From assembly GCF_047511655.1 (NCBI RefSeq), contig NC_133390.1, forward strand, positions 168,412,083 through 168,476,082: a stretch of 64,000 nucleotides of DNA, given 5' to 3'. The stretch comes from Castor canadensis (lineage: Eukaryota; Chordata; Mammalia; Rodentia; Castoridae). The position numbers and the translations under genes are program-made. Position 1 is the first letter of the stretch, and each line of letters begins with the position of its first letter. Below the pieces are notes generated by a model. The model made no database searches. It saw only the letters and a program-made list of their open reading frames with translations, and was not told the origin of the DNA. Below are positions 14,371-64,000 of this stretch, in pieces.

Positions 14371-15012
14371 GCATCGTATGGTGAGGGAACAGAGTGGGCA
14401 TGGGGCAGTGGATGCTGGAGGGGTGAGGCGGGGCGCAGGTGACCTCCTGAAGACATCCAGACTCCCGTCTCTCACCAGGACCACTATTCCAGCCTCCTTC
14501 CTGCTCTTCCTGCTTTGATGCCCCTCTTCAGCTCATTCTCTGCCCCCTTTAATTTACCCATGTTCCTCGCCTCATCTGCAGTCTTCAATGACTCTCCTTT
14601 GCCTTTGGAAGTGGTTCTTGAAAGAGAAGCTCTGGAAGCTGGGGGGACCTCAGGTGGTACATCATTGGGGTTCCCTGGGAACTTGCCCAGAGGACAACCC
14701 AGTTTGGGGCTCATTTGTCTTTTTCACACTTCTTGCCAAAGGGAGGTCAGGTCAGGCTCAGAGCCACCAGCACACACTGCCTGTGGTCAGAGCTCTGATT
14801 TGTTCTAAACTTGATTCTCCAATGGCTGGCTTCTTCTTAAAATCCCTTCTCTTGGCTCCTCCATGCTGTGCTCACTTGTCTCTATCCCCCTCCCCAGGTA
14901 GGGGCACCATCAGATATCTGCTTCAAGCCTCTCTTGTCTGGGACTCCATCTTGTCCTGTGGCTTAAACATAACCCACGATTCCTGAGAGCATCGCTCCAG
15001 ACTCAACTCATA

Positions 15013-15343
15013 ACTTTTTTTTTCCTTTGGTGGTAGTGGGGTTTGAACTCAGGGCCTTATACTCGGAAGGCAAATGCTCTACCATTTGAGCACCACCCCC
15101 AGCTGTTTTTTGCTTTAGTCATTCTTCAGAGGGAGTTTCTCGCTTTTGCTCCGGATAGCCTCAGATCTCCATTCTCCTATCTCCACCTCCTGCTTAGCTG
15201 GAATTACAAACATGACCCACCACGCCAGGCTTATTCTTCGAAGTCTTGACAACATTTTTGCTCAGACTGGCTTTGAACCACAATCTTCCTATCTCTGCTT
15301 CCCAAGTACCTGGGATCATAGGTGTGAACCACCTTGCCTGGCT
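15013..15343 (-). mobile_element. Composite SINE (antisense)
   Basis: T-run, GTTTGAACTCAGGGCCTTAT and TGCTCTACCATTTGAGCACC (ID part), then two B1-like segments each ending in a GGGATCATAGGTGTGAACC-type motif. It sits just before or within L2 sequence. Confidence 0.9.
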
Positions 15344-15569
15344 CAAGTGGCCTTGACATCCCCACATGGATGTCCAAATGAGCTAAAAGTCCTAAAGGGA
15401 GCCTGTGTTACTCTCACCTCTGTTCTCCCATTGCCTGACCCATTCTGGTCCCAGGAGTTGCCCTTCTCTTACTCCTGCCTTCCCCACCCAGTCTATCTGC
15501 CACCTTGTGAGTTTACCTGCAAACCCTGTTCAGGAACAGCCCCTTGCCTCCGTTTGTTTGCAGCGGGTC

Positions 15570-51286: not shown

Positions 51287-51400
51287 CTGCGGGGTGAGGA
51301 CAGCAAGGCTGACATTGAGGCTGAGGCCATCCTGGGCCCAGCTACCAGGTAACCTGACCAGGCCTGGCATCAGCCCAGGTCCCTAGCCCCTCAGTGGTAC

Positions 51401-51522
51401 CTGACCCGGCTTGGCATCCTCACATACAGCTGCCTCATAAGGTGTGGCTAGCTCTGGGGGATTGTCGTTCACATCCAGGATTCGGATTTGTAGGGACGCC
51501 CGGGAAAGCTGAGCTTGGTTGT
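51401..51522 (-). CDS. CDH22: CDH22 exon: EC4 end and EC4-EC5 linker
   Basis: A 122-bp exon. One base from the preceding exon completes an Asp codon, giving DNQAQLSRASLQIRILDVND and NPPELATPYEAAVCEDAKPG. It contains the DVNDNPPE calcium-binding linker between EC4 and EC5, the diagnostic cadherin motif. The acceptor is CTTATTACAG and the donor GTACCA follows GGTCAG. The 122-bp length is standard for type II cadherins. Confidence 0.96.
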
Positions 51523-51689
51523 CTGTAATAAGAGCACAGGAGGAGGGTGGGAGCATGGAGGGTGGGAGCCAGACAAGCCCCACTGCTCCCAGGACAGGGC
51601 TAGGCAGTGGGGTCACAGTGATGAGAGTTTTTGGGTTGTCCAAGCTGATACATGAAGCAGGACTGGGGACATTAGGGCTGAAGTGAGCA

Positions 51690-52080
51690 AGCCACCACCA
51701 TCATCAACACCCCCATCCAACCAACATCACTGTCACCATTCCCACCATTCCCACTGACACTGGCACCATTGCAGTCCCACCATGGTTCCTAACACCTCAC
51801 ACACCAGTACCGTGCCAGCACCATCACCAACGCCATTACAACCATTAGCATCACCACCACCACCATCATGAAGCCAATGTGACTGCTGCCATTAACCTTG
51901 TAATCACTGTCTCTACCAACTATCAGTGTCACCCTCACCATCCACACCACCATTGCCATCAGTAACCATAGTTACCATCACCCCAGTGGGTCATCGCCCC
52001 TCCACCACAAGTACTAAGCTCATCACTGTTACCACCCTCCTGCCACCACCTTCCCTCTATCACCACCACCAACAGGTGAC
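51690..52080. repeat. CCA/CAT-rich low-complexity tract
   Basis: Interrupted CACCAT, CACCAC and ATCACC trinucleotide-type units over about 390 bp, starting about 170 bp intronic of the 122-bp CDH22 exon. Confidence 0.85.
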
Positions 52081-52920: not shown

Positions 52921-54063
52921 CATCCTTGAAAAGACTAGACATAGAATACCTCATCCCAAGCTGGTTTCTGAGCAGCGCCCTGCATGTTGGCTCTTTCTAG
53001 TGTCGCTGCCTGTCCTGGGCCTCCAAGAGCTCTCTGCTCCCCATTCTCAGCTGTCTCAGCCATGTGCTCACCATGGATCTTCTTCACCTGCCACTGACCT
53101 CAGGAGTGTCCCTGGGAGGAAACCACAAAGCTCCCAGCCGGGCTGGCAGGGAGCTATTTTGGGGCAGCTGGGCACCCCACAAATTTTGGGAAGAGTGGGC
53201 TGGTCAGCTGCCTCCTTCTCTGAACTCAGGGGCCTGGTGGATGCTGACTGTGGCTGTTCGTGTGCTGTTGAAGAGAGAGATGGAAACTGGAAGGCAGGTG
53301 GAGCCACCTCCCTGGATCAGGGAAAGGAGCGGGGAGTCCTTCATTAGCTCAGACCTGACCCCACTCTGGAGTTCCCCTCAGCTGGGGACACCTTATCTTC
53401 TCAGCTCACCCAGATCCGCCTCCTCAGCAATTAGAGGGGCTCTTCCGGGGGTGAGGGATGGGAGTCGTGACTGGGAATGCAGGGTGAGCCGTTATTTTTA
53501 AGAGTGTGTTGCCAGAGAACCTCAACAGACAGATGGGGGGTGCTTTCGGGAGGATGGAGGAGGGGAGGGCAAGACCCAGAGCCAGGATTCGGTGCCTGAC
53601 TCCCAGCTGAGGGAGAGGGAGGGTGAAGCTGGCTGGAGCCTTGGGGTGGTGTAGAGGGAGAGCCTGCTGCCATGCAGAAGGGGGACCTGAGAGCAGGATG
53701 GCCGCTCAGTGGGCAGTCACCCTCTTGGAGTGCTGGCCCCAGTGCTGGAGACCCCTATCACTGCACCACTGCTATGGGTTGTACTGGGGCCTCTACCTTT
53801 TCTTTCGACAGGTCACAGGTCACCTCCTGCGAGTGCTTTGACCCCTCTGGCCTGAGGGAGGGTCTCAGCTCTAAAAGATGGGCAGCTGAGGGGGCTTACG
53901 GAAGAGGTCTGCCTGGAAGTTTCCACAGCTGCCACCTACAGAGCTTATCCTAGAGAAATAGGGCTGGTCTGGAATCCCAGAGCCCATGGCTGGCTATCTC
54001 CAGTGCCCCTGACCTTGGGGCTGGGTATACACAAGAATTACCCGGGAAGCCTTTAAAAAAATA

Positions 54064-54405
54064 CCACAGCTACAAATGTGGTGGTTCACACCTGTAATCC
54101 CAGCCTCTTGAGAGGCAGAGAGTGGGAGGATCAAGGTTTGAGGGTAGCCCAGGAAAAAGTTAATAAGACTCTATCTTAATCAATAAGCTAGGTGTGGGGG
54201 TGCATGCCTGTGGTCCCAGCTACGCAGGACGCATTAGGCAGGAAGATCAAAGCTCAGGGTGATGGGCCAAAGCAGGAGACACTATCTGAAATATAATCTT
54301 AAAAGCAAAAAGGGCTGGGGGTGTGGCTCAAGTGGTAGAGCGCCTGCCTAGCAAGCACAGGATTCTGACTTCAAAGCCCAGTACCGCCAAAAACCAACCA
54401 AACTA
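54064..54405 (+). mobile_element. Composite SINE (two B1-like units plus ID-like unit)
   Basis: TTCACACCTGTAATCCCAGC, GCATGCCTGTGGTCCCAGC, then a well-preserved ID-like unit (GTGTGGCTCAAGTGGTAGAG, CGCCTGCCTAGCAAGC) with an A-rich end. Confidence 0.93.
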
Positions 54406-54654
54406 AAAAAACCAGTGCCCAAGCCTTGGCCATTGATATTTTTTAAAGTTTCCCAGGAGAATCTAATGTGAACCAAGGATCAAGAACTCTGTCCTAGGGT
54501 GACTGGCAGCTGAGCGACTTTGAACTGATGTCTTGCCTCTGATTGGCTCCTCCAAACCCCTCCTGATCACAACTGGTATTTATAATAACTGATAAAAATG
54601 CACGTGTTTTCCACCTTACGTGATTCTCTTATAAAACCAAGAACCTGTCAGTGC

Positions 54655-59290: not shown

Positions 59291-61132
59291 CATTCTCCAA
59301 GGTGCTCACAGAGCTCTGCTGCTGTGTATAAATATTTCCCCTCTGATTCCTGTCACCTCGTGTTTGTCACGCCTGGGAGAAGGCAGGACCTTGTGACCTC
59401 TTGTGCATCCCATTTCTGGGGAAGCCCCATGGACACTTCAGCAGGAGGACACAGGATCAGGAGGGCACACCTGGTGGCTTTGCTTTCAGAACTCTTGGGG
59501 CTCTTGGGGGCGGGGGATCTGGAGTTGAGCCCTGGCCTGCATGAACTTGTTTTGGGGTCTTGAGGCCATGACTGTTCCTCCCTGAGCCTGTTTTCTCATC
59601 TGTAAAATGGGGGTAGTAATTGTGTCTTTGTCTCCCAGAGATGGCAAGAGGTAGAATGGATGGATGGGCTATTTGTCACAACCAAGGAACTATGATTGGA
59701 GGAACAGTGGGGAGAGACCTGGGCTCTGGAGTCAGACAGGCTGGGGCTGGCGATTTGCACAAATGACTCATCCACACACTGGGGACAACAGAATTGACAT
59801 CTTAGGTGTAAAGAGTCAGTTGGATTTGTCGCTGTAAAGGGCTGCTTATGCCAAGTGCACAGTCGGGGCCATCGGATACAGGTAATTAACTGAGCACTTA
59901 TTAAGCCCCCACCACTAGGCCAAGTTCTTTCCCTGATTTTCCCAGTGGCTAGTATCCTGGGCGAGCAGTGGGCAGGGGCTGGAGATCACAGCTCAGAGAA
60001 GGGATCTTCTCCTTGCCTTCCCCAGGTCAGTTGGTGGGGAGTAGAGGTGGGATGTGATGGGCCTCTGAGAGCCAAGAGTGCAGGGAAAGAGAGGCCACTC
60101 AGCAGATGCTTCGGAAGGACCAAGCAGACCTGGTCCAAATCCCAGTTCTGCCACAGCAGTCCTTGCGCAAGTCTCCCACGTATCGGAGCCTTGATTTCTC
60201 CCATCAGTAAAATGGGTGCTCATGATGCTACTGATCAGCTTTCAAAAAAAGCATATTCAGGAAAACATGGGGCCTGGAAGGTATATTCAGAACAAATTGT
60301 GTAGGGTTTTTTTTTGTTGTTGTTGTGGGGAGGGGTACACCCTCCTATTCTTTCCCATTCTGGATTACAGACTGGCATGCAATTCTAGCTGTTTGCTCAA
60401 AGAGACCCTCAGATTAGAACCAGCATGCTTAACCCAAGAAGGGACTTGCCAGTAGTTAGATGTCAGGTAGGTGACAGGCTGGTGGGAGCGTGTCTTTGTG
60501 ACTGGCAGCCGGCTGTTGCCCCCTGGCTCTGTCTGCAGCCTGGAGCGTCAGTGGCTGGCCAGGGAGTAGGTTTGGAAAGGCAGGAGGGGAGCTTTCTTCT
60601 CCCAGTCCAGCGCCAGTTCCTCTGCAGCCACCTTTGTTCTCTCTTTCAAGCCGTGAAGGAGTGGATTCAAAGGCTCCAGCAGCAGCAACGAGGGCTGAGC
60701 CGGCTTTGTGTTTTCCTTTAAGCCGCAGTTGAAAGAGACAAGGGAACTTCAGCCTAGGGACTTCCTCAGCCTTGGGATGGGCGTGTGGGGCAGCAGGGAG
60801 AGGAGGAGTAAGGCTGGCCAGAGGAGCCTAGGCCAGCGGGCAGGGGCGAGTTTGGGCGCTGCCCACAGTCTGCGGCTCAGAGACCACTAGTGGTCCTAGT
60901 GTCACCACTGCTTACTGGCAGCTCTGTTGACTCCTGAGGCCTCAGAGGTGCTGTACGGCATGCCCACTGCATGCATGGAGAGCGGGTGAAGGCAGAGGCC
61001 CTCTCCTGATGCCCCACAAGTCCCAGTACCCTCTGCTCCTCACCTCCATAGCCTTGCTTATCTGAACCCTGTATCTCAGGATCCCCTTCTTTCTCTCCCA
61101 GCTCATACTTCCTGTGTTGAAAACTGCCTGTG

Positions 61133-61134
<2 letters not shown>

Positions 61135-61165
<31 letters not shown>
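61135..61165. repeat. (CA)n microsatellite
   Basis: CA dinucleotide run of about 31 bp. Confidence 0.96.
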
Positions 61166-61167
<2 letters not shown>

Positions 61168-61386
61168 TCCAGAAACTTCTACTCAGCAGTGTCAAGCAAG
61201 CTGCCTGTGGCACGTGTGAAACTTAAGCCAAGCACCTGGGAGTGGTCCATGACCCCTCTCCATGTCTCAGGTTCACATGGCCCTTCAAGCTGGTTCCCCT
61301 CTCCTTGACTGACAGCTCAGTCTTTGCCCCACCCCTCAACTTTTCCTCCTCCCTCCATATTTGCCTTATCACTTTGCCCAGCTCAC

Positions 61387-61505
61387 AAACTTCCCCGGCC
61401 AGCACTGAGACCTTGTGCTGTCCTGTGGTCCAATCCCTTGCCAGTCAGGATGGTGCCTGTGACCAGCAAGTATTCAAAGCCAGGTGCTTGCTTCTCATTC
61501 CATTG
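61387..61505 (-). pseudogene. Decayed duplicate of the CDH22 EC4 exon
   Basis: On the CDH22 strand this reads GFEYLLVTGTILTGKGLDHR where the live exon has IFDIDANTGAIVTGKGLDRE. The block 61427-61461 matches 62345-62379 at 30 of 35 positions, and intron sequence beyond the donor (61302-61336 against 62184-62218) also matches at about 30 of 35. An AG (61507-61506) and a GT donor-like GTGAGC (61386-61381) survive at the homologous ends, giving 119 bp against 137. An 8-bp deletion and other losses break the frame, and entry in the natural splice phase meets TGA. It is therefore read as a dead tandem exon copy, not a functional alternative exon. Confidence 0.78.
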
Positions 61506-61569
61506 CTGCAGGTCCGGGCTGGGCCATCATCCCCCAGCTGAGCCCCCTTTCCCCTCAGCCCCCTGTTGA

Positions 61570-62035
61570 TGCTCAATGAAGCCGCCACAGGCACCTGTCA
61601 GGCAACACCCGACTTTGCTCAGTCTCCTCCCGGACTCCCCCTCATGTGGAGGAACGTCCAAAGACCCCCTGCTCTACCTCTCCCGACCACATTGGCTTCC
61701 TTGTGGTTCCTCTAACCTATTGGGTCGGTACCACCTCAGGGCCTTTGCACAGGTGGAGTGCTCTTTCCCGTCAGCATGGCGCCCTTACTTTCCTGAGGTC
61801 TTTGTTGAAAGTTCTTCTCTGACGCCCCTCTTCCTTCCATCCCCTTGCCCGTTTTCTTCTCTCCCGCTCCTTCTCAGCACTTCACGCCACCCGACATAAT
61901 GAGCACTCTTCCTCTCAGTTTGTTGACGGCCTATTTGTCCCCTAGGATAACAGACACTTATCTGTCTTGGTTGAGGCTGTATTCCCAGGCCCTAGAACGG
62001 GCCTCAGCATGTTGTAATTAGGTACTCAATAAACG
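61570..62035 (+). repeat. L2 LINE 3' fragment
   Basis: CTCAGGGCCTTTGCACAGGT, CGGGCCTCAGCATGTTGTAA and TTAGGTACTCAATAAACGAG. It lies between the dead and live copies of the EC4 exon. Confidence 0.85.
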
Positions 62036-62296
62036 AGGGAAGAAAGATGGTCTCAAAACTAGCTAAGGGGATACCCTTAGCTTGGGGCCCCCCCTGGATC
62101 TTTGTTCCTGTGGGCCTTTTGTCCCCACCTTCACCCAGATGGGCTCTTTCCCCAGTTTCTTACTCTTTGCTCTGCCCTCAAGGTCCTTGACTGACAGTTC
62201 AACCTTTGCCCCGCCCCAGTCATTGGCCCCTCCCCTCAGCTTTTGCTCCGCCCCCACATTTGCCGCTAGGGTGTCCAGCAACTTCGCCCAACTCAC

Positions 62297-62433
62297 CCGC
62301 CTCCATGGCCAGCACGGTGATGTTATGCCAGCCGGCCGTCTCACGGTCCAGCCCCTTGCCCGTCACGATGGCGCCTGTGTTCGCGTCGATATCGAAGATC
62401 TGGTCCAAATCCGAGTCTCGGTCAATGGCGTAC
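62297..62433 (-). CDS. CDH22: CDH22 exon: EC4
   Basis: A 137-bp exon, the standard length for this type II cadherin exon. It starts after CCCCCTCAG with the last base of a split codon and then encodes YAIDRDSDLDQIFDIDANTG and AIVTGKGLDRETAGWHNITV followed by LAMEA; one base is left for the Asp codon completed at 51522. Visible cadherin features are the DANTG turn, the LDRE motif and an NIT glycosylation sequon. It is the most 5' CDH22 exon in the window. EC4 forms part of the rigid extracellular rod. Confidence 0.96.
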
Positions 62434-62929
62434 CTGAGGGGGCAGGGCGGGGCTGATTGAAGGTGCCCCAGTGCCCGATGGAGCCCGTGTCCATGTTCCC
62501 TACCCCACTCCCAGAGAGGACCACCTGCCCGGATACTCCTAACAGGGAGGAGTGGGAAGGGGTCTGGGTTGGCAGCTCCATGGCACTGGAGCCTTTCCGA
62601 CCCTCAGTTTCCCCAGCTGTTAGTAGGTGACTGCCTGGCACAGGTGTTCCATTCTTATCTTTCCAAAAAAGGTGACCTTGGAATTGGGCTTGACCCTCGA
62701 GAGCAGGGCTGGGAAGGGTATTCGGGGCAGGCAGGCAGAGACAGGCGAGAACGCTTCAGAAAATGACTAAAGGTGCAGAACAGTCAGCAGGGCACAGGAT
62801 CCAGGAGTCGGACGTGCCCTGGGGAGCCAGTGAGGAGATCTGAGCAGGAGAGGGACAGTGAGGGGCTCATAGACAACTTGGAGGTCAGGTGGAGGCCCCC
62901 GACCGGAGAGTGGGCTGAGCATGCCCAGG

Positions 62930-63190
62930 GGAGGGGGAGCCCAGGCCTGGCCGCTGGATCCTCCCGCCTGCGCAGCCCCAGCCGGCTAATCTGCGGCTTT
63001 TCAGTTGCCGCGTGAAAAAGCCCTTTGTTCCGCCTTCTTCCCAGGCTTTTGTGCGGCGGCTCCAGGCCTGAAAGGCCCGTGTCCAACACATGTCTCAGGC
63101 GGCGGCGGCCCAGAGAGGCCCCGCCAGCGCCGGCCGCCGCTTCCCCGCGCAGATAACGCGGGCGGGGGCGCAGCCGGGCTGCTCCGCACA
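62930..63190. promoter_or_regulatory. Intronic CpG-rich island
   Basis: Concentrated CpG (GGCGGCGGCGGCCC, CGCCGGCCGCCGC, GATAACGCGGGCGGGGGCGC) in a window whose intergenic and intronic DNA is otherwise CpG-poor. No exon recognised in it. It may be an internal promoter or another regulatory island. Confidence 0.5.
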
Positions 63191-63429
63191 CAAAGCCCTC
63201 AGAATGGCAGGCAAAGGCACATTGTGCAGCCAGGACAAAGCAGCCTGGTGGGGAGAGCTCAGCCCAAGCCACGGCCCCTCCCACAAGCAAGAGGAAGGGG
63301 CCTTTTCCCCAAACCTCAGAAAGGGAAACTGAGGCCCAGGGAGGTGAGAACACCAGAAACACTACCTGCCCCATGCCGAGAACCTTATGACCCTTCCCTG
63401 GGCGGGGGGGGGGGGGGTCTTGGCTGCAT

Positions 63430-63620
63430 GGCCAAACCTCTCTGCTTCAGTTTCCCCTTCTCTTCAATGAGAATAATGACACAGGGAACTGCACAGTTCT
63501 GGGAACAGTGGGAACCGGGTTTGAGTTTCCTGTCACTTATTCTACCTGTGTGACTTTGGATCAGTCCCTTGACATCTTCGGTCTCCTTGCTCATGGGGAG
63601 AAGGTGATGATGCCTGCCCA
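63430..63620 (-). repeat. MIR SINE fossil (antisense)
   Basis: GTGTGACTTTGGATCAGTCC and a preceding CTGCTTCAGTTTCCCCTTC, in antisense MIR order. Confidence 0.7.
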
Positions 63621-64000
63621 TGCACCATGGTGCAGGTTAGGGAGGGACAGAGCAGACTGTGTCATGCATAAGGAGGCAGGCAGAAGGGGGAGGCATGGTG
63701 AGTTCCAGCCAGTGTTCTACCTGCCAAGCTCTTGTCCCAGCCCAGGGAATGGCTTCTCAAAGTGAGAAGAGGTCCTTATTTGCACAAAGGTGTCATATGG
63801 ACTAGCAATGACCCTGCCCAGAGTAGCACAGTGACTGCTGCAGAATTGGAATCTTTATCCAAATTTGGGGCTGTGCCCAGAGTTCCTTCTAGCTTTTTGA
63901 GCCATTCAAAGCTTCAGTGCATGGAGCTCAGGTCCCCTTTGCCCTCAGCTGGGCCCTGACGGGTGTTTGGGTCCAACAAATACAGAAGACTATGAGTGTC

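Follow-up and report, generated by a model that had tools for sequence, protein, structure and literature searches.

The CDH22 intron downstream of the EC4 exon carries a real, CDH22-derived and decayed partial duplication of exon and intron sequence, of an already known type. The account that we hold to be likely is that a partial piece of EC4 exon and intron was copied locally by repair, made no usable exon and has decayed since. All positions refer to the window, i.e. the whole stretch of 64,000 nucleotides that was analysed, unless another sequence is named, and the features are collected in Table 1.

Table 1. Positions of the duplicated CDH22 sequence, its source and neighbouring features in the window.
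Feature	Position	Strand	Basis
Live CDH22 exon, part of EC4	62297..62433	-	137 nt, YAIDRDSDLDQIFDIDANTGAIVTGKGLDRETAGWHNITVLAMEA; translation, related exons in the same genome, well-scoring donor and acceptor
Donor stretch of the duplication	62184..62379	-	Last 83 nt of the exon and 113 nt of the following intron; local alignments
Spacer between donor stretch and copy	61462..62174	-	Block-wise and wide alignments; no significant second copy downstream
Stretch earlier read as 5' part and acceptor of a ghost exon	61462..61507	-	Homology to the live exon undetectable; acceptor score -2.0
Decayed copy	61302..61461 (at most 61297-61461)	-	Local alignment
Open segment with the next CDH22 exon	51386..51700	-	Translation

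The CDH22 locus and the homology of the copy

The gene is identified as CDH22 by an exon lying some 35 kb upstream of the live EC4 exon, which matches Cadherin-22 (chain 6cg7_A, E 1e-62); this EC1-encoding exon differs from the chain at 2 of 99 aligned residues. The live exon translates as YAIDRDSDLDQ...LAMEA, and we take it to be part of EC4 from the general layout of type II cadherins and from the sequence encoded by the next exon. Since that next exon lies within the open segment listed in Table 1, the copy sits inside an intron of approximately 10.7 kb.

Local alignment of the copy with the live stretch on the minus strand gave a score of 80, far above all of 1000 dinucleotide-preserving shuffles (maximum 35, mean 21.3, s.d. 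2.7) and above the maximum of 39 from 200 shuffles of a wider stretch, so that the existence of a decayed copy, as recognised in the initial annotation, is borne out. Using a milder scoring, 61297-61461 aligned to 62175-62379 with 131 of the 164 aligned bases identical. When the whole window was searched against itself, 89 pairs emerged with E no higher than 1e-4, and 61318-61461/62217-62379 (E 7e-9) was the sole one touching 61000-61900. The shuffles together with the self-search rule out chance similarity between the copy and the live exon. A more permissive scoring (5/-4/-12/-1) ran long alignments through random sequence and was disregarded.

The copy lies in direct orientation relative to the live exon and is made up of 75 exon-derived nucleotides (61387-61461) and some 85-90 intron-derived nucleotides (61297/61302-61386), with a gap of 8 nt in the exon part of the alignment and gaps of 5, 6, 1, 18 and 4 nt in the intron part. 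The 8-bp deletion described at the outset was recovered as a net loss of 8 nt from the exon-derived part, and the homology said to run past the donor splice site into the intron, at about 30 of 35 bases per block, was recounted as 30/35 in the first exon block and 30/34 in the last intron block.

A search of the genome located 20 further loci, the best ten of which (48-64% identity) look to us like the same exon in other type II cadherins. The copy scored 80 at the DNA level against CDH22, compared with 15-25 against the exon regions and 17-27 against the whole loci of these 20 other cadherin-type loci, whilst the peptide of 61387-61505 scored 57 with CDH22 and 14-40 with the other 20. An exon of another cadherin was rejected as the source, since none of the 20 loci offered the better paralogous match that would have spoken for one. 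Because CDH22 clearly outscores all 20 and intron sequence is shared as well, the copy derives from CDH22 itself, and this gene-specific homology supports the earlier proposal of an old intragenic duplication of exon and intron sequence that has since decayed. When the copy and the live stretch were each searched as DNA against the whole genome, nothing but the query itself came back; since each search missed the partner sequence, such searches detect near-identical DNA alone and say little about further copies. No Rfam family reached its gathering score in 60000-64000.

Edges of the copied piece, splice sites and frame

The copied piece starts inside the exon and comprises the last 83 of its 137 nucleotides followed by about 115 nucleotides of intron. 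The first 54 nucleotides of the live exon showed no similarity to 61462-61540 (221 and 233 of 300 shuffles were as good under two scorings), nor did they when the acceptor and upstream intron were added (162 and 182 of 300 shuffles as good). When the alignment was extended from the exon-side junction under three scorings, 150, 42 and 15 of 150 shuffles did as well or better; without gaps, 17 of the same 54 bases agree beside the junction. When the missing 5' half of the exon was sought across a joined 164 kb, the best other match covered 21 aligned bases (E 0.012) and was taken as chance. In simulations with 15-28% substitutions and some indels, in which detection meant exceeding the shuffle maximum, the power to detect the missing half alone was 0.70-1.00, rising to 0.95-1.00 when the acceptor and 97 nt of intron were included. 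On the intron side the match ends at 61302/62184, with five further matching bases past a 4-nt gap that would extend the end of the donor stretch to 62175, and for anchored extension beyond this point 55, 39 and 28 of 150 shuffles did as well (three scorings).

With the first 54 exon nucleotides undetectable in the copy, an exon origin for 61462-61505 is unsupported and the exon previously drawn at 61387-61505 is a composite: resemblance to the live EC4 exon holds for 61387-61461, whilst 61462-61505 shows no detectable similarity.

Splice sites were scored with general consensus frequencies. The initial annotation regarded an AG as kept in the copy, but because the homology ends at 61461 this AG (61507-61506) falls outside it; it scores -2.0 compared with 5.8 for the live acceptor, a value equalled or bettered by 1186 of the 5493 AGs in the window, and from about 61387 to 61800 every AG scores 3 or less. 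A GT is indeed present at the donor position, as had been reported, but its strength is that of background (0.07 bits compared with 6.2 for the live donor, with 466 of 3132 GTs in the window scoring at least as well). The in-frame stop noted previously occurs in the frame that is phase-compatible with the AG, whereas the frame giving TGTILTGKGLDHRTA is open over 39 codons. Such an open homologous frame within 119 nt is weak evidence of use. Changes in the exon part fall 9/3/9 at codon positions 1, 2 and 3, and this distribution, together with the loss of 8 nt, leaves nothing to suggest coding constraint.

These observations bear on the proposal that the copy is a second EC4 exon that may formerly have served as an alternative. 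The segment that was copied is missing the 3' splice site and, at its 5' end, 54 of the 137 exon nucleotides, and so was never a complete exon unless a later deletion took that side. A full duplicate with its own acceptor, formerly alternative and later deprived of its 5' half, would account for the exon part, the GT at the donor position and the open 39-codon homologous frame, but the missing 54 nucleotides and acceptor are untraceable, both next to the copy and across the rest of the 164 kb; the background strength of both donor and AG, the dearth of better AGs nearby, the 8-nt loss and the absence of a coding pattern among the changes likewise count against it, and we judge it very unlikely. 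As far as can be read from the sequence, we see no sign that the copy was ever a working second exon.

Mode of duplication, divergence and age

The copy had been called tandem, a loose term here, as 713-722 bp with no detected homology separate it from the donor stretch. The spacer was compared at the expected tandem offset in fifteen overlapping blocks, each with 400 shuffles under two scorings. The three blocks overlapping the core were matched by 0/400 shuffles in both scorings. For the other twelve the lowest count was 7/400 (36/400 in the other scoring), a neighbouring block gave 27/400, and the lowest count under the other scoring was 23/400. The block with 7/400 contains a weak collinear match of live 61527-61584 to 60595-60653, at an offset of about 931, for which 11/300 shuffles were as good (106/300 in the other scoring). 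Given twelve blocks and two scorings, this match is not significant, and it is the sole observation in favour of a genuine tandem duplication with later loss. Searching the genome with the spacer yielded no match but the spacer itself. On the minus strand the spacer at approximately 61600-62060 resembles an ancient mammalian interspersed repeat.

Homology ends 713-722 bp before the copy is reached, and the spacer has no significant second copy, so the arrangement is not a simple head-to-tail duplication. A head-to-tail event could be retained by supposing a unit of about 918 bp that started inside the exon and whose second copy lost nearly everything beyond 61297 by deletion or replacement; the direct orientation would then follow, the left edge of the copy at 61461 would be the unit junction, and the match at offset ~931 would be a remnant. 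This scheme requires an additional large loss, however, and the blocks from 62160 to 61641 carry no significant homology (100-339/400 and 45-336/400 shuffles as good) though the core keeps 80%, making it improbable in our estimation. Retro-insertion of a pre-mRNA was rejected, there being neither a poly(A) nor a target-site duplication at the joints as read by eye.

Local copying by repair, which we favour, would have involved a piece of about 200 bp consisting of the 3' part of the EC4 exon, the donor splice site and the first ~115 bp of the intron, and this piece would have been placed in direct orientation into the same CDH22 intron, approximately 0.9 kb downstream. The most likely route is repair of a double-strand break by synthesis on nearby DNA, in which synthesis-dependent strand annealing may have captured a proximal template. 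Having arrived with no acceptor site, the piece would not have been usable as an exon and may simply have drifted afterwards.

Overall, copy and donor stretch are separated by a distance of 0.24 per site, with 0.15 for the intron-derived and 0.36 for the exon-derived sequence. As the live exon is constrained, the exon part would be expected to have diverged less, and the reverse was observed, with substitutions at 21/75 sites of the exon part and 12/89 of the intron part (Fisher p 0.03; 0.07 with another exon alignment; 0.06 (0.059) without CpG sites). Decay of CpG sites and the uncertain alignment around the 8-nt loss lessen this excess but do not abolish it, so that it stands as an unexplained feature that speaks against neutrality. 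An intronic splicing-regulatory or decoy element, whose intron-derived half was kept by selection, would fit the fewer substitutions in that half (p 0.03-0.07), but the counts are small and alignment-sensitive, the intron half has more gaps (those listed above), and the donor score is at background; we give this idea very little credence. Just as little credence goes to a combination of this idea with the alternative-exon account, in which a complete second EC4 exon, once alternative, lost its 5' half and acceptor, leaving its 3' end as the present copy, and the intron half was kept for splicing control.

For the local repair copy, the range of 0.15-0.36 substitutions per site, at assumed rates of 2.2-4.5e-9 per year, would correspond to an age of approximately 17-81 million years, a figure which is a guess and on which the copy would more probably be missing from human than present there.

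Comparison with known duplication types

The joined 164 kb (1339 masked N) was also examined for pairs at E up to 1e-6 whose members start less than 3 kb apart. Nine such close pairs were present, three of which have a single partner in the 164 kb and are all direct, the CDH22 copy among them; in the remaining six, either one member has eight or more partners or both have six. One of the other single-partner pairs, 34639-34696/35505-35562, is direct, 58 bp long and 97% identical across a gap of 809 bp, and is younger than the CDH22 copy and perhaps a better case for reading breakpoints. The other, L025:2832-2899/L025:4226-4293, lies upstream of the window (86832-86899 and 88226-88293 in the joined 164 kb) and is likewise direct, with 68 bp at 79% identity and a gap of 1327 bp. 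Short local duplication scars look ordinary here. SINE-like elements with an ID-like part occur at 54060-54420 and 15000-15345 and have many partners in the window; elements of this kind would point to a rodent outside the murids.

The CDH22 copy clearly illustrates, as a single case, that local copying of short pieces can bring parts of exons and donor sites into introns and make no usable exon. Resemblance at the peptide level within an intron is not in itself evidence of a lost alternative exon, and a check of where the homology ends and of the acceptor has to come first. No report of a CDH22 exon duplication was found in the open-licence literature searched.

So-called doublets are reportedly short local duplications that occur as pairs close together. 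Those of Thomas et al. are described in PMC2671141 as identical or nearly so and under 100 bp; the CDH22 copy is likewise short, local and paired but is longer and decayed.

A second established type is the tandem exon duplication that gives rise to mutually exclusive exons. Such duplications (for example PMC9013439) resemble the present case in providing a second copy of exon sequence in an adjacent intron, in the same gene and on the same strand, but the CDH22 copy is incomplete, inherited no acceptor, has suffered a frame-breaking loss and has a weak donor. A tandem alternative exon would have the whole exon duplicated with both splice sites and an open frame of compatible phase; here 54 of 137 nt and the acceptor are undetectable, there is a net loss of 8 nt, and the phase-compatible frame contains a stop.

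Closest to our findings are the proximal repair-mediated duplications of Pace et al. (2009; PMC2671141). That paper reports local copies with a mean length of 162 bp, a median of 147 bp and a maximum of 619 bp; 753 of the 1,136 are found no more than 3 kb from the donor, with a peak in donor distance at approximately 1,200 bp that the authors regard as a possible artefact of their method. Poly(A/T) was absent in 39/39 proximal cases examined, Table 2 of the same paper lists 4 donors of the 'partial exon/intron' type, and such duplications are reported from mouse and rat too, where they are less dense than in primates (PMC2671141). Their marker for detection was an insertion interrupting a transposable element, whereas the class assignment of the CDH22 copy rests on size, spacing and the lack of poly(A). 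Compared with the cases in that paper whose breakpoints were examined, the CDH22 copy, at ~80% identity, is older, an age at which microhomology or filler is unreadable. It measures ~165 bp now and ~196-205 bp in the donor, with an offset of 878-918 bp, and so falls within the limits of the class as given in the same paper (a donor no more than 5 kb away and an insert between 50 and about 620 bp), and its ends, read by eye, carry no poly(A) or poly(T). Like the repair-mediated proximal duplications described there, it lies less than 5 kb from its source, is free of poly(A) and matches the published range in length and spacing (PMC2671141), and on this comparison it is probably a decayed local duplication that arose through repair.
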